64,000 nt of DNA from Engelhardtia mirabilis. GTDB lineage: Bacteria; Planctomycetota; UBA1135; GCA-002686595. Shown piece by piece: positions 32,443 through 44,333 of this stretch (the stretch's first letter is position 1; each line of letters opens with the position of its first letter). The stretch is taken from the NCBI GenBank assembly GCA_007751255.1, contig CP036296.1, positions 4,650,001-4,714,000 of the forward strand. The letters are read 5' to 3'. Position numbers and translations under genes: made by a program. Under the pieces are notes generated by a model. That model was not told the origin of the DNA. It did no database searches and saw only the letters and a program-made list of their open reading frames with translations.

Positions 32443-34332
32443 TCAGTAGTCCCGGAAGTACCGCACGGCGGAGCCGAGGATCACGCCGTCCAGGTTGAGG
32501 TCCTTGTTGGCGCCGGCTTCGTCGCAGTACATGAGCGCCCCGTCGACCCCGTCGGTACGAATCGAGGGTCCCGGCCCGGCGTCCAGGATCGAGGTCAACA
32601 CCGGCGAGCAGGTCACCAGGGGCGTGCGCACCAGGACTCGATCGGTCGCGTCACCGTCCAGGTTCCAATCGCGCCCGTCCGCCTGCTCGCTGACGCGCAC
32701 GAAGGCGCGCCCGAAGGCCACGACCACCCCACCGTCCATGGGCTCGGTCGCATAGCCCAGGCCGGAGGCGACCGAGCTGTTGTAGGTCGGGCTGTAGCGG
32801 ACCCAGATCGGAATCGCGTCGGTCTGATCGGCGACGAAGAAGTCCTTCACCTGCGCGTTGCAACCGACGTTGAGGTTCAGCCCCTGCGACGATTCGAGCA
32901 GCTCCGCACGCAGTCGACCGGCCTGGGTCACCTCCATGCGCGCCAGCCCCAGCTTGAGCCCAGTGGGCCCGTCGGGGTCCAGGTGCGTCAGGTTCCAGGA
33001 GGTCGACGAGCCGGGGAAGACGCGACCGAGCCAAGGCAGGGCCAGGGGCGAGCCGCCGACATTCACCGTGGTGTCGATGGCCGCGAACAACAGCGGCTCC
33101 ACCGCTGTCAGGCCCAGGCTCTCACCGGGCACGGCCGTGTCGACGGGGTCGTAGAGGTCGGGGCCGTCGACGGCCACGGTCGGATCGTCCAGGGGCGCCC
33201 AGCGCACGACGATGTCGTCGGTGGGCCCGTCGCCGGTCAGGTCGCACCCGCCGGCGCCCAGGTCCGACTCGCGCGAGAGGGTCACCAGCCAGTTCTCCAT
33301 CAACAGCAGCTTGATGGCGCCGGCGAGCTCGGTGTTGGTCGTGCTGGCGATGGTGCCCGCCTGCCACTCGAGCAGGTGCAACACGTCGTCGACCGTGTCC
33401 GTGTCAGCCGGGCAACCGGCCGGTACCGCCGCGATCGACGGGTTCAGGTTCACCGCCCCCTGCTGGGTCTCGGAGACCAGGCACAGGACGTCGAAGTTCC
33501 CGTCGGAGACTTCGCGCGCCGCGAAGGGCGCGTCGGCCGCGGGCTGGGCCAGGCCCGTGCCCACCACCAAGGGCGGCGAGGCGTCGACCTCCACCAGGGC
33601 CAGCACCGCGGTGTCGCCCCCGTCCAGGTCCCCGTTCAGGTCGCCCTGGCCCCCGGCGGCGGTCTCGTCGATCGCCAGGCGGATCAGGCCGCCCTCGCGC
33701 GCCACCAGCTGCACCCGCACCGTGCCCAGGGTCACCCCGTCGGTGTCGATCTCGACCGGCAGGTCCGGGTCCGCGATGTCGATGTAGCGCAGGTTGGTGC
33801 CGTTGACAGCGATCGGGTCCGCGTCGACCGGGTACCAAAGGCGCGTGCCGGCGGCGACCAGGCCCAGGGGCGAGTCGGGGTCGATCAGGTCGACGAACTC
33901 GGGCTCGGACAGGGAGAAGTTCCAGTGCAGGAGCACCAGCTCGTCCATGCCGTTGCTGTTCCAGTCCTGGTTGTTCGTCTCGTCGACCACCAAGTAGACC
34001 TGGTCACCCAGGATCTCGATCTCGCGCGGCGCCGCCCCCAGGTTGCGCTGGGCGCCGTCTGAGAAGCGCAGGGCGATCGCCACCCCGTCGTCCATGTCGC
34101 CGTCGTCATTGAGGATCGTGCCGCCGGCCTGGGTCGCCTCGTCGGCCTTGAAGACCGCCAGGTTGCCGCGCACCCGCGCGCTGCCGTCGTCGACGCCGAC
34201 GTAGCCCGTCGCGCGCACTTGGAAGGCGCCGTTGGAGTTGCTGCCGCTGCAGGCCGCGAGGCCCAGGACGACGAGCAGCCCAGGGAGCAGGACGCACGCC
34301 TTGGGGGTGGATTGGGTCTGCTCGGTGCTCAT
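32443..34332 (-). CDS. lipoprotein with repeated Asp-rich loops, unknown function
   Basis: A 629-residue protein. The N-terminus ends its hydrophobic stretch with LLVVLGLAACSGS, a good lipobox. The mature part is acidic and beta-rich with many calcium-loop-like segments: DDGDMDDG, DWNSNGMDE, DLNGDLDGGDT, DLTGDGPTDD, DWNLDGDATD and DLNLDG. These resemble dockerin, EF-hand or thrombospondin-type loops but are not regularly spaced. No enzyme motif. Probably a surface lipoprotein stabilised by calcium. ATG 34332 chosen for the signal; TACACT lies 10 nt upstream of it. Confidence 0.7.
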   Translation of the reverse strand: MSTEQTQSTPKACVLLPGLLVVLGLAACSGSNSNGAFQVRATGYVGVDDGSARVRGNLAVFKADEATQAGGTILNDDGDMDDGVAIALRFSDGAQRNLGAAPREIEILGDQVYLVVDETNNQDWNSNGMDELVLLHWNFSLSEPEFVDLIDPDSPLGLVAAGTRLWYPVDADPIAVNGTNLRYIDIADPDLPVEIDTDGVTLGTVRVQLVAREGGLIRLAIDETAAGGQGDLNGDLDGGDTAVLALVEVDASPPLVVGTGLAQPAADAPFAAREVSDGNFDVLCLVSETQQGAVNLNPSIAAVPAGCPADTDTVDDVLHLLEWQAGTIASTTNTELAGAIKLLLMENWLVTLSRESDLGAGGCDLTGDGPTDDIVVRWAPLDDPTVAVDGPDLYDPVDTAVPGESLGLTAVEPLLFAAIDTTVNVGGSPLALPWLGRVFPGSSTSWNLTHLDPDGPTGLKLGLARMEVTQAGRLRAELLESSQGLNLNVGCNAQVKDFFVADQTDAIPIWVRYSPTYNSSVASGLGYATEPMDGGVVVAFGRAFVRVSEQADGRDWNLDGDATDRVLVRTPLVTCSPVLTSILDAGPGPSIRTDGVDGALMYCDEAGANKDLNLDGVILGSAVRYFRDY

Positions 34333-34342
34333 CGGGCCGAGC

Positions 34343-34348
34343 AGTGTA
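34343..34348 (-). promoter_or_regulatory. possible -10 element (TACACT) close to start codon
   Basis: TACACT on the minus strand lies 10 nt before the ATG at 34332. The same hexamer precedes the lipoprotein gene at 12073. Confidence 0.33.
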
Positions 34349-34456
34349 GCGGCGACCCCCGGCGGAGCTGCACCGCGCTTGCGAGGCTGGGATCGGACAT
34401 CGATCCGTAATCGAACGGGACTGGCCGGCGGGGGCTTCAGGCGCGACCATGCGCCG

Positions 34457-36391
34457 GTGACGTTCCTGCTCGCCTCGGCGCCCCACGCAGACACGTTCGG
34501 CTACTCCATGCCGCCCCCCGGCCTGCTGCGCCTCGGGGGGGAGCTGCGCCGACGGGGGCTGCCCGTGGGCCTCGACGACCTGGCCTTCGCCCTGGCCCGC
34601 GGGGAGCTGCCCGGGGACGCGGAGCTGGCCCGGGCCTGCGCCGACCGCCTGCTGGCGCGGAAGCCGGCCGTGGTCGGCCTGTCCGTGATGGGGGCGACCC
34701 TGCCCATCGCCCTGGCCATCGCGGACCAGCTCCGCCGGCGAGCACCCCAGGTGCCGGTGTGGCTGGGTGGTCCGGGGGTAACCGGGGTCGACGTGGCGCT
34801 GATCGAGCGCTTCTCGGCGGTCGGCCTGGTGGCCCGCGGGGAGGGCGAGCGCACCCTTCCCGAGCTGCTCGGACGCCTGGCCGAGGGCGCCGGCCCGGCC
34901 GGGGTCGCGGGGGTCACCTGGCGCGCCGCCGATGGCCGCGCGGTGCGCGAGCCCGACCGGCCGCCCCTGGCGGACCTGGACGAGGTCGCGCCCTACGCCT
35001 GGGACCTCTTGCCGTCGATCGCCGAGTACAAGGCCCTGACCGGCGAGGACGAGGGCCTGGTGCCGATCGACTCCGGGCGCGGCTGCGTCTACGACTGCTC
35101 CTTCTGCACCATCGGGCGCTATTGGAACCGTCGCTCGCGGACCCTGCCCGCGCCGCGCCTGGCCGAGGAGATCGCGGCCCTGGCCGCGATCCCGGGCGCG
35201 CGCAACGCCTACCTGTGCCACGACATCTTCGGTGCGGACCGGCGCCACGCGTTGGAGCTGTGCCGCTTGCTCGAGGAGCGTGACGCGGGCGTGCCCTGGG
35301 AGGTGCGCGCGCGCATCGATCACCTGGACGACGAGCTGGTGGGCGCCATGGCCTCGGCCGGCTGCTACCGCGTGCTGCTCGGCGTCGAGTCGGCGGACGG
35401 CTCGGTTCGCAACCGCAACGGCAAGCGCATGGAGGAGGGCTTCGACGTGGTCGAGCGCGTGGGGCGCCTGGGCGACGCGGGCATCACGCCGATCCTGTCG
35501 TTGATCTTGGGGCTGCCCGGCGAGGGTGAGGCGGAGCTGCGCGCGACCTGCGAGTTGGCCCTGGCCTGCAGCCTGCGGACCGGCGCGCAGCTCTCGTTCC
35601 ACCTGGTCAATCCGCAGCCCGGTTGCGGCCTGGGCGAACAGCAGGGAGCGCGCTCGCGTCCGGTGGTGGGCATTCCGCCGGACATGGCCCTGGGCGCGGG
35701 CCTGACCGAACCCGAGCGCGAGCTGATCGAGGCGCACCCGGACCTCTTTTCGACCTGGGCGCTCTTGACCGACCTGCCGGGCGGCGTGGAGCACCTGCGA
35801 CGGCTGCACGCCCTGTCCCAGGGTCTGCCGCCGCTGTTGATGCGCTACCCGCGCAGCTTCGCCCTGGTCGCCCGCCGGCGCGGGCTCGATGCCCTCGACC
35901 TGTTCGATCACCTCGTGGCGACCGGGCGCAGCTTCGAGAGCCTGGCGAGGAGTGAGCGCGACGCTCTGGTCGACGACTGCCTGGCCTGGGAACAGGCGCA
36001 GTTGCGCGCCGCGGTGCTCATCGCTGGCGACGGGCAGAGGTCCTGCGGCGCGCCGCGCCCGGCGGGCGTGCTCTTGCGCGCGCGACACGACCTCGCGGCC
36101 CTGGCCGGGGCCCTCCGCGCCGGCGGACCGATCGATCCCGTCACGCGAGCCTGCGATTACTTGGTCGCGGCCGACGAGCGCGGGACGCGAACCCTGGCCG
36201 TGTCCGCCGACGTTGCGGATCTCCTGGGCGAGCTCGACGGCCGCGACGTCGAGGCCCTCGAGGCGCAGCGCGCAGGCTTCGGCCGCGCGCTCGAAGCCCT
36301 GGCCGCCAAGGGCCTGGTGCGACTGCCCACGAACATCGACGCCGCCCTGGCGACGTCCAGCGAAACCGGAAGACCGAAGAGCAACCGATGA
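34457..36391 (+). CDS. B12-binding radical SAM enzyme with C-terminal PqqD-like region
   Basis: A 644-residue enzyme. Residues about 1-165 form a cobalamin-binding Rossmann-like domain (VVGLSVMGATLPIALAIA, VPVWLGGPGV). The radical SAM core has the canonical cluster motif GCVYDCSFC (Cys210, Cys214, Cys217) after VPIDSGRG, then LLGVESADGSVRNRNGK and ILGLPGEGEAEL. A long linker leads to about 566-625 (LAVSADVADLLGELDG to ALAAKGLVRL), which has the helix pattern of PqqD-type peptide-recognition elements. Start at GTG 34457; the ATG at 34449 is out of frame. Its stop overlaps the next gene's start as ATGA. Probably modifies the downstream peptide; the chemistry (C-methylation or other) is unknown. 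Confidence 0.85.
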   Translation: MTFLLASAPHADTFGYSMPPPGLLRLGGELRRRGLPVGLDDLAFALARGELPGDAELARACADRLLARKPAVVGLSVMGATLPIALAIADQLRRRAPQVPVWLGGPGVTGVDVALIERFSAVGLVARGEGERTLPELLGRLAEGAGPAGVAGVTWRAADGRAVREPDRPPLADLDEVAPYAWDLLPSIAEYKALTGEDEGLVPIDSGRGCVYDCSFCTIGRYWNRRSRTLPAPRLAEEIAALAAIPGARNAYLCHDIFGADRRHALELCRLLEERDAGVPWEVRARIDHLDDELVGAMASAGCYRVLLGVESADGSVRNRNGKRMEEGFDVVERVGRLGDAGITPILSLILGLPGEGEAELRATCELALACSLRTGAQLSFHLVNPQPGCGLGEQQGARSRPVVGIPPDMALGAGLTEPERELIEAHPDLFSTWALLTDLPGGVEHLRRLHALSQGLPPLLMRYPRSFALVARRRGLDALDLFDHLVATGRSFESLARSERDALVDDCLAWEQAQLRAAVLIAGDGQRSCGAPRPAGVLLRARHDLAALAGALRAGGPIDPVTRACDYLVAADERGTRTLAVSADVADLLGELDGRDVEALEAQRAGFGRALEALAAKGLVRLPTNIDAALATSSETGRPKSNR

Positions 36392-38718
36392 TCCGCCAGG
36401 CCGACTTCCCCGTCTCGCTCGTGTTCCCGCCCCAGGGGCACTTCACCCAGCCCTACCTGGCCCTGCCCTGCCTCAAGGCGCACTTGGCTTCGGAGGGCTT
36501 CGGCGACGTGGAGCTGATCGACGCCAGCATCGAGGCCTACGACCGCTTCCTCTCCGCCGACTACCTGGCGGCCGCGGCCGAGCGCGTGGACCGGCGCCTC
36601 GCTCTCTCGAGCTTCGAGGGGCGCGAGCAACTGGCCTTCGAGGACCTCGAGGCCTTCCGCGCCGCGGCCGAAAGCGCGGTCAGCGCCGCCAGCCTGATCG
36701 ACGAGGTCGAGGACGCGAAGGCGGTCGTGCGCGGCGAGGCCTTCTGGGACGCGGACCGCTACGTACCGGCGGTGCGCACCCTCTACCACGGCCTGCGCCT
36801 GGTGTCGGCGTCCTGGTTCCCCAGCCAGCTCACGCCCCACAACTTCACCATGCGCTACGCCAACGACCACTCGGACCAGGTGCTGGCCGCGACGTTGGAC
36901 GAGGCGGAGAACCCCTTCATCGAGCACTTCCGCGCCACGCTGCTGCCCCGCCTGGTCGCGCGTCGGCCGCGGGTCGTGGGCCTGTCGGTGATCTACGGCA
37001 GCCAGTTGATCCCGGCCCTGACCCTGGGGCGGATGATCAAGCAGGCCCTGCCCGATTGCCACGTGACCGCCGGCGGCGGGTTCCTGGCCTACATCGGCGA
37101 GAAGCTGATGGGGGCGCCCGGGATCGGCGCCTGCCTGGACTCGATCATCTTTCACGAGGGCGAGGCGCCCCTGGCGGCGCTCTGTCACGCCCTGCGCGAA
37201 CAGCCGCCGGGGACGGCGGTGGACCTCTCCGAGATCGGGTCGCTCCTGTGGTTCGATCGTCGCGACGGAGCGGCGCACCCGGTTCGCAACGCCCCCGCCC
37301 ACCCGATCAAGCTGGACGAGGCGCCGATCCCCGACTTCGACGGCCTGCCCTTCGAGAAGTACTTCAGCCCCGAGGTCGTGATCCCCTACGACATCAACCG
37401 CGGCTGCTACTACGGCGAGTGTGCCTTCTGCACCCTGCCCACGGTGATCGGCCCCGGCTACCGCACGCGCTCGGCGGCGCACATCGTCGACCACGTGCTG
37501 GCGCTCAAGGAGCGTTACGGCGTGCGGCACTTCAACTTCATCACCGACTGCATGCCGCCGGGGATGATCGCCGACCTGCCGACGGAGCTGATCGAACGCG
37601 AGGCGGACATCCGCTGGTGGTGCGATGCGCGCGTCGAGCCCAAGGCCTACGACCGCGAGGGGGCCGAGCGCCTGTACGAGTCGGGCTGCCGCAAGTTGCT
37701 GTTCGGCTTCGAGACCGCCACGCCGCGCCTGCTCAAGATGATGCAGAAGGGGCAGAGCCTGAAGTCGACGGTCCAGGTGGCCGAGAACTGCGCCGCCGCC
37801 GGCATCAGCGTCACCTTCTACGCGATGGTCGGGTTCCCCTCCGAGACCCGCGAGGAGGCCCGCGCGACCCTCGACTTCCTGCGCCAGCACGCGGGCACCG
37901 TGCGCGAGGTTTCGCTGCAAACCTTCCACATCGACGAGGTGGCCCTGACCTACCGCGACCCCGAACGCTTCGGCATCCGCATCCTCGACGAGCCCGGCGC
38001 CGACCTGCAGCTCTACCACGACTACGAGTCCGAGTCGGGCATGACCCAGAACGAGGCGGCCGAGATGTTCGACGAGATGATGAGCGGCCTGCGCGCCAGC
38101 CTGCCGCTGTTCTCGGGCGACAACATCTTCTGGTTCATGCAGAAGAGCCACTACTTCCTGCACCTGGCGCGCGACGTCAAGCCCGACGCCTTCGAGCGTG
38201 CCTGCGCCGAGCGCACCGCGCGCCGCGCGGCCGGCAGCGCCGACCCGAGCCTGCGCGTGGTCGACTCCCTCGAGCTGGTGGAGCTGCCCTTCCGCTACGG
38301 CGAGGTGATCGAGACCCTCGGCCACCCCCTGGCCCGCGCCGTGCGCCCCGACTTCCTCACCGGCCGCTTCGTCGCCGGCGCGCGGGACGAGGCGGCGGCG
38401 GTGTTGGGATCGATCGCCCCGCGGCCGAGCGTGCTGGCCTACGCCGGCGGCGGCGCGACAGAGTTCGTGGGCCTGACCGCTGACGGCGCACGGGTGCTGG
38501 AAGCCATCGCCGAGGCCGGCGACTACGGCGCCCTGCGCGCGTCGCTGCAAGACCAGGGCGAAGCCGCCCTGGCCAAGCTCGACGCCTTTGCGACCGAGCT
38601 CAACCGCCTCGGCCTCTTGCGCGTGCCCACCGCCGATCCCAGCGAGCTGAGCCCCGCCCCGGGCACCCCACGCCGATCGAGCGCCACGCCCTCCAACGCC
38701 CACTCCCCCCGCCCCTGA
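36388..38718 (+). CDS. B12-binding radical SAM enzyme with CX4CX2C cluster motif and PqqD-like tail
   Basis: A 776-residue enzyme coupled to the preceding gene by an ATGA overlap. The N-terminal part holds a B12-binding-like domain (VVGLSVIYGSQLIPALTLG, CHVTAGGGFLAYIGEKL). The iron-sulfur motif is RGCYYGECAFC: Cys340, Cys345 and Cys348, that is CX4CX2C instead of CX3CX2C. LLFGFETATPRLLKMMQKG and FYAMVGFPSETREEA follow as in B12-radical SAM proteins. Residues about 680-747 (FVGLTADGARVLEAIAEA to ELNRLGLLRV) look PqqD-like. The Pro/Ser-rich last 30 residues are probably disordered. Acts with its neighbour, most likely on the 57-residue peptide. Confidence 0.84.
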   Translation: MIRQADFPVSLVFPPQGHFTQPYLALPCLKAHLASEGFGDVELIDASIEAYDRFLSADYLAAAAERVDRRLALSSFEGREQLAFEDLEAFRAAAESAVSAASLIDEVEDAKAVVRGEAFWDADRYVPAVRTLYHGLRLVSASWFPSQLTPHNFTMRYANDHSDQVLAATLDEAENPFIEHFRATLLPRLVARRPRVVGLSVIYGSQLIPALTLGRMIKQALPDCHVTAGGGFLAYIGEKLMGAPGIGACLDSIIFHEGEAPLAALCHALREQPPGTAVDLSEIGSLLWFDRRDGAAHPVRNAPAHPIKLDEAPIPDFDGLPFEKYFSPEVVIPYDINRGCYYGECAFCTLPTVIGPGYRTRSAAHIVDHVLALKERYGVRHFNFITDCMPPGMIADLPTELIEREADIRWWCDARVEPKAYDREGAERLYESGCRKLLFGFETATPRLLKMMQKGQSLKSTVQVAENCAAAGISVTFYAMVGFPSETREEARATLDFLRQHAGTVREVSLQTFHIDEVALTYRDPERFGIRILDEPGADLQLYHDYESESGMTQNEAAEMFDEMMSGLRASLPLFSGDNIFWFMQKSHYFLHLARDVKPDAFERACAERTARRAAGSADPSLRVVDSLELVELPFRYGEVIETLGHPLARAVRPDFLTGRFVAGARDEAAAVLGSIAPRPSVLAYAGGGATEFVGLTADGARVLEAIAEAGDYGALRASLQDQGEAALAKLDAFATELNRLGLLRVPTADPSELSPAPGTPRRSSATPSNAHSPRP

Positions 38719-38742
38719 CCCCCAACACCCCCGAAGGCCCCC

Positions 38743-38916
38743 ATGTCGCAAAAAGACACCGACGCCGCCAAGGAACGCAAACCCGGCGCCCCCCCCACCT
38801 CCCCCGACGCCAAACGCCCCTCCAAAGCCCCCCTCGACCTCGAGAACCTCGATCTGACCGTGGAGCAGGTCGACGAGCGCATCAGCCCGCGGGAGACGAA
38901 CGTGTTCGACAAGTAG
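38743..38916 (+). CDS. candidate RiPP precursor peptide, 57 residues
   Basis: A small gene too short for routine ORF lists. ATG 38743 lies 24 bp after the radical SAM stop, with GAAGG 5 nt upstream as a Shine-Dalgarno sequence; TAG ends it at 38916. The peptide has a Lys/Pro/Ala-rich start (MSQKDTDAAKERKPG), an acidic, probably helical stretch (LDLENLDLTVEQVDER) and a short tail ISPRETNVFDK. It has no Cys, no signal peptide and no hydrophobic segment. That leader-like plus short-tail design, directly behind two radical SAM enzymes with PqqD-like regions, fits a precursor whose tail is modified. I do not recognise the family; a small regulatory protein is the alternative. Confidence 0.68.
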   Translation: MSQKDTDAAKERKPGAPPTSPDAKRPSKAPLDLENLDLTVEQVDERISPRETNVFDK

Positions 38917-42380: not shown

Positions 42381-42440
42381 CGGTCACGTCCCGAACGGTC
42401 ACGTCCCGAACGGTCACGTCCCGAACGGCCACGTCCCGAA
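42381..42440. repeat. four 15-bp tandem repeats abutting the intron
   Basis: CGGTCACGTCCCGAA is repeated four times without gaps; units 1-3 are identical and unit 4 (42426-42440) has one change (GGCC for GGTC). The array begins 24 bp after the stop of the VWA gene and ends exactly at the inferred 3' boundary of the group II intron. Confidence 0.9.
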
Positions 42441-42533: not shown

Positions 42534-43907
42534 TCACGGCGCCAGTTGGGGGAGCCCCAGCTGGGCGAAGTGGGAGTTGCGAAGGATGAGGTGGACTCGG
42601 TGGCAGGCGTTCCACCACCAGCGGTGGGTCTGGGCGGCGACTTCGGCGGCCACACGCGTCGAGGCTCCTCGAAGGCGTAGCTCGCGGAACACCGTTCGCC
42701 CGCGCTTCCACTGGTGGAGTTGGAGCGCCCGGAGGCGCCTGCGGATCCACTGGTCGAGGGTGGCGAAGAGTCTCGGCGTCGCGGCCAGGGCGAAGTAGCC
42801 GTGCCAGCCGAGCAGGTAGCTTCGCAGCTCCCCGATGACGTGGCTCAGGCTTCGTCCTGCGTGGCGACGCGTGATCTGCCGCACTCGATCCTTCATCTTG
42901 TCGAGAGCTTTGCGGGCCACCCGCAGACGTACGGTCTTCCCCGGAGCCACCCACATCGAGTAGCCCAGGAAAGGTCGGTCCCATGCGGGGGCCACGGCGC
43001 TCTTGGCCTCGTTGATGCGCAGCCGAAGTCGGCCAAACAGAGTCCGGAGTTGGCCGAGCACGCGTTCTCCCGCTCGTTGCGAGCGGACGAACACTCGGGC
43101 ATCGTCCGCGTAGCGCACGAAGGCGTGTCCGCGGACCTCCAGCTCCTTGTCGACTTCGTCGAGCAGCACGTTGGCCAGGAGCGGTGAGAGTGGGCCGCCT
43201 TGCGGCGTCCCCTCCCAGCGCTGCATCAGCACTCCGTCCACCATCACGCCGGATTGCAGATAGCGACGGATCAGTCTCAGGACGCGGCGGTCCTCGATCC
43301 TCTTGGCGAGCTTTCCCATCAGCACGTCGTGATGGACTCGATCGAAGAACTTCTCCAGATCGACGTCGACCACGACTCGGTGTCCGGATTGGACGTGTCG
43401 CGTCGCCGCCCGAAGGGCGTCGTGGGCGCTGCGTCCCGGTCGGAAGCCGAAGCTGTGCTCGGAGAAGGTCGGGTCAAAGATCGGTTGAAGGACCTGCAAG
43501 AGGGCTTGCTGGATCAGACGGTCGAGCACCGTCGGAATCCCCAGTTCGCGGGTGCCTCCCCCGCTCTTGGGGACCGACTGCCGCTTGATCGGGGCCGGGG
43601 TGTAGGTCGAGTCGAGCAAGCTCGCTCGGATCCGGGCCCAGTGGCCTCGAAGGTACGGCAGCAGCTCGTCCGTCGTCATCCCGTCCACGCCGGGACTGCC
43701 TCGGTTCTTCTTCACTCTCCGCAGAGCGGCTTCCATGTTGCGGCGCTCGAGCACCGCCTCCATCAAGCCGACTGCTCCTGGGCACTCGGTTCCGTGAGCC
43801 GCCGTCGGCGCTTCGTCGCTTCGCGGTACGTTCAGGGCTTCACCCCTATCCTCCCACGGGAGCTCCAGTTGCCTGGACATCTGACGCGGTTCGCCTTCGA
43901 GGTTCAT
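42534..43907 (-). CDS. ltrA: group II intron reverse transcriptase/maturase
   Basis: A 457-residue intron-encoded protein. The reverse transcriptase domain has NRGSPGVDGMTTDEL, IPTVLDRLIQQALLQVL, HSFGFRPGRSAHDAL, VVDVDLEKFFDRV, the template-grip EGTPQGGPLSPLLAN and the catalytic YADD (266-269). The maturase X domain follows (LGWHGYFALAATPRLFATLD). No HNH endonuclease domain is seen, so it would use target-primed routes not needing second-strand cleavage. All key residues are present and the frame is intact, so the element may be active. Start at 43907 or at the ATG nine codons later. Confidence 0.95.
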   Translation of the reverse strand: MNLEGEPRQMSRQLELPWEDRGEALNVPRSDEAPTAAHGTECPGAVGLMEAVLERRNMEAALRRVKKNRGSPGVDGMTTDELLPYLRGHWARIRASLLDSTYTPAPIKRQSVPKSGGGTRELGIPTVLDRLIQQALLQVLQPIFDPTFSEHSFGFRPGRSAHDALRAATRHVQSGHRVVVDVDLEKFFDRVHHDVLMGKLAKRIEDRRVLRLIRRYLQSGVMVDGVLMQRWEGTPQGGPLSPLLANVLLDEVDKELEVRGHAFVRYADDARVFVRSQRAGERVLGQLRTLFGRLRLRINEAKSAVAPAWDRPFLGYSMWVAPGKTVRLRVARKALDKMKDRVRQITRRHAGRSLSHVIGELRSYLLGWHGYFALAATPRLFATLDQWIRRRLRALQLHQWKRGRTVFRELRLRGASTRVAAEVAAQTHRWWWNACHRVHLILRNSHFAQLGLPQLAP

Positions 43908-44333
43908 GGGCGTTGAGCCCTTCTCCCCGTTCGGGCCTTCGCCGGCTCGGGCCGACTACTACGCCCTCTGCTGACTTCTCGCTCCGCCAACCGGTGGCGT
44001 CGCCCTTTCAGACGTGAGGCGAGATCTCCCTGGGTAAGACAGATGGCCGTCCCCACACAACCGCCGGATTTACGCCGCGTCCCTTTGACCGCAAGAGCTT
44101 CGCTGTCACGTGCCAGCTCGCCCTGGTCCGCGGCGCCTCGAATCCGATTCCTGTACGTCGGCCCGTGGGTTCGTTCCACGCTTCCTTCAGACGGACCCTC
44201 GCGAGCCCGCCCTTGCGCTTCCCTTCGGTCCCTGCGGCCAGGTTCCGGGGGGACTTTCACCTCCAAGTCATCTGTCATGCCAGGCACACACGGCCGCGGG
44301 GCCCCTCCGCCCGAGCGGAAGAGCCCCGCACCG

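Follow-up and report, generated by a model that had tools for sequence, protein, structure and literature searches.

Closest described systems and the Engelhardtia mirabilis locus

In the pyrroloquinoline quinone (PQQ; PqqA/PqqE/PqqD) and mycofactocin (MftA) pathways, a radical S-adenosylmethionine (SAM) enzyme and a recognition element (RRE) for ribosomally synthesized and post-translationally modified peptides (RiPPs) act with a short precursor that has a fixed core, and this conserved core contains Tyr. The logic of precursor, RRE and radical SAM maturase is already known. Here we describe a locus in a 64,000-nucleotide (nt) stretch of the Engelhardtia mirabilis genome (contig CP036296.1, positions 4,650,001 to 4,714,000; hereafter, the window), where the genes of two B12-binding radical SAM enzymes, rSAM1 and rSAM2, are followed by the gene of a 57-residue peptide. 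The locus probably represents an undescribed RiPP-type maturation system of Planctomycetota, with the peptide as its precursor.

The gene layout given in the earlier note, which had been made from the sequence alone, was reproduced: an ATGA overlap joins rSAM1 and rSAM2, and the peptide open reading frame (ORF), with its own GAAGG site, begins 24 nt past the rSAM2 stop codon. The NVFDK-stop DNA pattern that closes the peptide gene occurs once in the 6.9-Mb genome of the window. Peptide residues are numbered backwards from the C-terminal Lys (-1), and the features, in window coordinates, are as follows:

34457-36391, + strand: rSAM1, B12-binding radical SAM enzyme, 644 aa, GTG start inferred, CX3CX2C motif
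36044-36331 (approximate), + strand: RRE-like part of the rSAM1 C-terminal region, residues about 530-625
36388-38718, + strand: rSAM2, B12-binding radical SAM enzyme, 776 aa, CX4CX2C motif
38245-38628 (approximate), + strand: RRE/PqqD-like domain of rSAM2, residues about 620-747
38733-38737, + strand: GAAGG, ribosome-binding-like sequence ahead of the peptide gene, read from the sequence
38743-38916, + strand: ORF of the 57-aa precursor-like peptide, ATG start
38743-38847, + strand: N-terminal part of the peptide, residues 1-35, variable, charged and Pro/Lys/Asp-rich in the alignment
38848-38874, + strand: LDLTVEQVD segment of the peptide (-22 to -14), putative RRE-bound strand
38875-38913, + strand: ERISPRETNVFDK, tail of the peptide (-13 to -1), proposed core, from the alignment and codon-position identity

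Both enzymes exceeded the Pfam cut-offs for PF02310 (B12-binding) and PF04055 (Radical_SAM). The CX3CX2C motif was present in 46 of 46 rSAM1 sequences, window included, and the CX4CX2C spacing in 81 of 81 rSAM2 sequences (78 by strict pattern, three variants by eye). By sequence comparison with NCBIfam, both are nearest to RiPP maturases, each below the cut-off: rSAM1 best matched ApyD (201 bits over residues 19-434, cut-off 750 bits), and rSAM2 best matched TIGR03975 rSAM_ocin_1, a family of RiPP C-methyltransferases (126.7 bits over residues 162-533, cut-off 281.85 bits). Since both cut-offs were missed, ApyD and rSAM_ocin_1 were rejected as the class of these enzymes. The C-terminal domains of rSAM1 and rSAM2 were nearest to RREs by fold comparison only; the closest solved fold to the rSAM1 region was TglI, and a PqqD match was obtained for 6 of 11 rSAM2 relatives.

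The apy pathway of Burkholderia thailandensis is similar in that a B12-radical SAM enzyme with an RRE works on a short precursor close to its C-terminal end: ApyD methylates the beta-carbon of a Tyr there to give beta-methyl-Tyr (PMC11117315). It differs in its class-defining MNIO and in the C-terminal Asp of its precursor, the peptide here ending in DK. The 3-thiaglutamate (pearlin) system TglHI/TglA resembles the locus in the TglI fold, and a carrier-peptide logic of this kind is possible; however, the C-terminal Lys is gene-encoded here. From PQQ and mycofactocin the locus is set apart by an NVFDK-type tail without Tyr and by two large B12-radical SAM enzymes. Of the five window neighbours run through Pfam, four matched a family, namely FG-GAP_2, VWA/HEAT, the reverse transcriptase of a group II intron and, weakly, DUF5696; the fifth, a lipoprotein, had no match. 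Among these genes there was no MNIO, P450 or methyltransferase family as in apy, no MNIO or PEARL family as with TglHI/TglA, and no PQQ or mycofactocin family; in agreement with the earlier note, which had seen no adjacent protease or dedicated exporter, these five included no protease or exporter family either, and the neighbours checked in Pfam at other loci also yielded none.

The type-1 peptide, the kind present in the window, had no Pfam or NCBIfam match at E ≤ 1, and one peptide of the second type introduced below (type 2) had none in NCBIfam at E ≤ 0.001. The earlier note likewise could match neither the peptide nor the enzyme pair to a described RiPP class. In the literature, neither the string NVFDK nor UnbV together with radical SAM was found, five other tail strings gave nitrogenase NifDK only among the matches listed, and no title among the matches listed described the system (subscription papers not covered). 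A passage search of two RRE papers (PMC12710340, PMC7470986) gave no mention of Planctomycetes, and the strain names are absent from PMC11032199.

Distribution of the peptide beside rSAM2

We analysed 61 genomes, namely the window's own and 60 relatives. Close rSAM2 homologues (over 860 bits) were present in 23 of them, window included, and distant ones (about 40% identity, 514-581 bits) in 16; in the family to which the window belongs, 34 of 37 genomes carried either kind. All 20 close-rSAM2 genomes with enough contig had the peptide downstream on the same strand, 19 directly and one (L022) about 2 kb off, and these peptides end in ETNVFDK; the remaining three of the 23 loci were truncated. 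At the distant rSAM2 loci, a parallel peptide ending in EDVADK was found in 13 of 16. The others were EDMADK (L044), EDTADK (L055) and a tail fused to rSAM2 (L043); L044 and L055 share their contigs with L138 and L162.

A search of 154 genomes of the class with peptide profiles gave 50 type-1 matches (two of them, G086 and G078, not covering the tail) and 30 type-2 matches, with no genome in both groups; the tables of this search do not list every non-matching genome. In the family, 74 genomes (50 + 24) matched one profile, two of the 50 without tail coverage. Within the 61-genome set, all 39 genomes with an rSAM2 match above 500 bits matched one peptide profile, and none of the other 22 was among the profile matches. 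The peptide is essentially single-copy: two strong type-1 matches occurred in one of the 50 genomes (G028, with C268 as the second), and one type-2 genome had a second, partial match. Starting from loci found with the peptide profiles, flanks of 1.5 kb included rSAM2 sequence in 28 of 30 type-1 and 30 of 30 type-2 cases.

With the rSAM2 alignment, 84,980 species genomes were scanned by a pattern-based method, which yielded 81 confirmed loci; 80 of them were kept. Their titles read Planctomycetota, planctomycete, or uncultured or unnamed bacterium, and they include the complete genomes Pla163 and Poly30, which we take to be Rohdeia mirabilis and Saltatorellus ferox; both genus names are present in the taxonomy. 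With the window added, 81 loci were compared, seven of them untestable because of a contig end or assembly gap. Many named loci lie on the same contigs as the 61 genomes, so the two sets of counts are not independent.

Among the 50 close-rSAM2 rows, 41 had the exact NVFDK ending, two had NIFDK and one (L107, 22 kb) had no peptide; in the other six, the contig ended inside rSAM2 (four), only 152 nt were left (one) or a gap fell in the tail (one). The 31 distant-rSAM2 rows comprised 22 exact EDVADK endings, eight variants (EDTADK, EDMADK, ENVADK, EDIADK) and one truncated locus. In total, the peptide was found in 73 of 74 testable loci: 43 of 44 with close rSAM2 (tail ETN[V/I]FDK) and 30 of 30 with distant rSAM2 (ADK end). 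The earlier note had named a frame not conserved beside related enzymes as the outcome that would count against its proposal; the frame is conserved. The median distance from the rSAM2 end to the peptide-gene end was 179 nt (63 exact cases), and in L088 and L157 the peptide was 1-2 kb distant from rSAM2.

The locus without a peptide, L107, belongs to genome G093, as its identical DNA shows. That genome has its NVFDK peptide 102.7 kb into a different contig of 164 kb, and the surrounding 14 kb contain no rSAM2. In G030, the peptide is likewise on a separate contig without rSAM2. Both genomes keep the two partners apart, which indicates that the genes can cease to be adjacent without either being lost. 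In G019 (L043, L197), the rSAM2 frame continues past the RRE-like region into ...KKYEFRILPADPKNAFEFEDAADK-stop, a type-2 tail (EDAADK) with Ala at -4 and without the disordered N-terminal part of the peptide. This is a single case from a genome 67% complete, and the fusion may be natural or an assembly error.

Selection on the peptide tail

Codon-position identity was calculated pairwise for 43 type-1 tails at positions 1/2/3. It reached 0.85/0.90/0.64 in codons -13 to -7 and 0.75/0.88/0.51 in codons -22 to -14, which show conserved alternating hydrophobic residues, compared with 0.38/0.41/0.36 in the N-terminal codons -50 to -27 and 0.30 in the 39 nt after the stop codon. Because the last six codons belonged to the pattern by which the loci were found, part of their invariance was fixed beforehand; this holds for neither of the segments -13 to -7 and -22 to -14. 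Synonymous variety was seen at invariant residues, with five codons used for Arg -12 and five for Leu -20. The codon-position pattern and the varied codons argue for strong protein-level selection on the tail, the N-terminal part varying freely in sequence. The alignment proposed in the earlier note thus places the conserved part in the tail and the variability in the N-terminal half, and the coding-type substitution pattern, whose absence the note had taken as refuting, is present. Asp -2 and Lys -1, two positions within the finding pattern, are constant in both types, and segments similar to LDLTVEQVD were also found in EDIADK and NIFDK peptide types.

Relatives elsewhere in the phylum

A search of 392 genomes of the phylum with the rSAM2 alignment gave 66 genomes with a match at E ≤ 1e-100, and 20 places were fetched. 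Intermediate enzymes of other families are accompanied by peptides ending in EDIADK (L230, L231, L232, L234; a fifth locus of this clade, L236, ends with its contig) or in KDRNIFDK (L235, L237, L238, L239). No peptide was seen in L233, of the NIFDK clade. Two tandem peptides follow rSAM2 in L231 (5294-5716, - strand) and L234 (8104-8539, + strand), one ending in GFTGQE plus one residue and the other in YGSEDIADK; one enzyme may serve two precursors there. In L235 (7644-11535, + strand), genes of a two-component sensor kinase and a NarL-type regulator were observed; the regulator gene runs into the start of the gene for the NIFDK peptide, which may hint at how the latter is regulated.

Shorter homologues, which stop ahead of the RRE-like region, occupy nine of the loci (L240-L246, L248, L249); no such peptide was found there, nor at L247. 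In one family, some complete genomes of about 4 Mb carry two of these shorter B12-radical SAM homologues. Third-tier paralogues (25-32% identity to rSAM2; 19 loci, L198-L216) had no adjoining short ORF kept between loci, except for a contig-edge fragment in L203, and a tail-motif scan of L199, L200, L201, L212 and L214 gave no match. L199 carries a cluster of three related B12-radical SAM genes, with no peptide recognised.

In a quick tree of 99 rows (L133, identical to L230, was dropped), the 90 enzymes of the four peptide-bearing kinds formed one group, with a Shimodaira-Hasegawa-like approximate likelihood-ratio test (SH-aLRT) value of 99. Tail types number at least four, and four rSAM2 clades, each with an SH-aLRT of 100, correspond to four of them; the root and the deepest joins of this tree are unsure. 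rSAM2 is the enzyme common to every form of the system seen. The earlier suggestion that all three genes form a maturation system is therefore supported in a sharper version: rSAM2 and the peptide are the constant core, and rSAM1 is a second enzyme that is not found everywhere. The RRE-like domains that end both enzymes, which the note had not seen, lend this suggestion further support, such elements being frequent, though not universal, in RiPP systems.

rSAM1, the residue at -3 and proposed maturation

rSAM1 was present in 46 of 50 loci of the NVFDK clade and in none of the 31 others; in the four NVFDK-clade loci without it, no more than 350 nt of contig precede the rSAM2 match. By genome, rSAM1 was detected at E ≤ 1e-80 in 22 of 61, all type 1. 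An rSAM1 homologue (35-38%) lies upstream of rSAM2 in all five NIFDK-clade loci and in none of the four testable deeper EDIADK-clade loci (the contig piece of L232 starts inside rSAM2). At -3, therefore, Phe accompanies rSAM1, and Ala is the residue where rSAM1 is absent. This contrast between rSAM1/Phe and no rSAM1/Ala is a natural one for assigning the target of each enzyme.

On the basis of this match and of the likeness to ApyD, we propose that rSAM1 acts at Phe and rSAM2 at the shared x-x-D-K. Of the three parts of the proposed precursor, the N-terminus would be variable and disordered, the middle part an internal strand with the sequence LDLTVExV (-22 to -14), and the C-terminal part the conserved core ERISPxETNVFDK. 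Judging from the fold, the RRE-like domains of both enzymes may bind the internal strand as an added beta-strand. The action of rSAM2 would fall on the part common to all tail types, and its family points to C-methylation as the most likely chemistry, at the usually beta-branched -4 residue or at Asp/Lys. For rSAM1, the pattern of presence and absence suggests Phe at -3 or its neighbours. Weighing against this assignment, the match between rSAM1 and Phe may stem from few evolutionary events.

RiPPs have mostly been studied as patchy antibiotics with variable cores, whereas here a precursor-like peptide has an almost fixed tail. It is found in most sampled members of a family, including Pla163 and Poly30, and in other parts of the phylum it has relatives in which enzyme and tail correspond clade by clade. 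Presence in 34 of the 37 family genomes suggests a physiological role and not an antibiotic; the near-single copy and the fixed tail argue in the same direction. As a less likely reading, we tentatively consider a housekeeping RiPP found throughout the lineage, whose modified C-terminal tail could work within the producing cell as a cofactor or as a group bound to protein, perhaps together with the secreted FG-GAP/ASPIC-UnbV beta-propeller proteins often encoded nearby, in a modular arrangement with Phe where rSAM1 is present and Ala where it is not. If modified, the peptide would give rise to a new kind of product, which could be a cofactor, in a phylum that is still poorly understood.

An ASPIC/UnbV protein is encoded upstream of rSAM2 in all four type-2 loci tested with Pfam, and BLAST found an ORF similar to it in 16 of 16 distant loci; FG-GAP proteins also stand beside the system in L233 and in the window. 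Such proteins are common, with 6-38 copies in each of nine genomes. Three of six copies in G040 and five of 13 in G044 lie within about 13 kb of rSAM2, and the other five type-2 genomes searched have one copy each at such a distance.

Alternative explanations

A carrier-peptide pathway, in which a small molecule or cofactor is cut from modified C-terminal residues as for PQQ, mycofactocin and 3-thiaglutamate, overlaps with the precursor reading and differs in its end product. A fixed small product would account for an invariant tail, and the tail is indeed fixed across genera; the occurrence of a profile match in 74 family genomes, two without tail coverage, is unlike that of patchy antibiotics, and the rSAM1 C-terminal region is nearest to TglI, from the 3-thiaglutamate carrier-peptide pathway. 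However, the residue at -3 is Phe or Ala by type, which would imply two products or more. Pfam showed no PEARL or protease family among the neighbours submitted to it (no genome-wide PEARL search was made), dehydrogenase-type genes were found upstream only in L045, with similar ORFs in L048, and the cytochrome c beside many type-1 peptides is non-specific. On balance, we regard this pathway as somewhat unlikely.

The peptide could instead be an unmodified small subunit or regulator that docks its tail into rSAM2, the true substrate being a lipid or other metabolite. The shorter rSAM2 relatives without a peptide in nine loci indicate that the enzyme family can use other substrates, and the tail is conserved more strongly than RiPP cores usually are. 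In G019, the union of tail and rSAM2 is what a subunit could look like; this fusion fits the substrate and partner readings alike, and so leaves the odds between them unchanged. The RRE-like domains and the match between rSAM1 and Phe, however, point to the peptide as a substrate, and the nearest NCBIfam models of both enzymes are RiPP maturases, which makes an unmodified partner improbable. A chance ORF or prediction artefact beside two unrelated metabolic radical SAM enzymes, conceivable for so short a frame in a GC-rich genome full of spurious ORFs, is refuted by conservation in 73 of 74 testable loci and by a coding-type pattern that falls to background identity after the stop codon, leaving it a negligible probability.

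Neighbouring genes and other observations

A scan for promoters and terminators found nothing. Of the type-1 loci, 36 extend 1.7 kb or more downstream, and in 15 of these the peptide is followed by an ORF with 4-5 CXXCH motifs; L128, with less downstream sequence, has one as well. Two such ORFs were run through Pfam and match cytochrome c554. A redox-cofactor link through this multihaem cytochrome was considered and rejected as non-specific: homologues (E ≤ 1e-25) occur in 36 of 61 genomes, type 2 included, and in the system-less G020, G026 and G033, but not in the window's genome. Complex I genes, which Pfam identified at a greater distance downstream in L023 and which have similar ORFs at four other loci, were rejected on the same ground. 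The dehydrogenase-type genes upstream in L045 encode a short-chain dehydrogenase and a DprE1-like FAD oxidase, with similar ORFs in L048 and in no other locus.

In the window, the lipoprotein gene at 32443-34494 (- strand) is divergent from rSAM1, fast-evolving and rich in repeated DLNGDGD-like motifs. Similar ORFs are present in 15 other type-1 loci; of these lipoproteins, two were tested and had no Pfam match. A group II intron at 42534-44208 (- strand) contains a reverse transcriptase/maturase ORF (PF00078, PF08388), and Rfam matches to group-II D1D4 were obtained at 43934-44011 and 44039-44208. Adjoining the intron ORF, four near-perfect 15-bp tandem repeats (CGGTCACGTCCCGAA) occupy positions 42381-42440.
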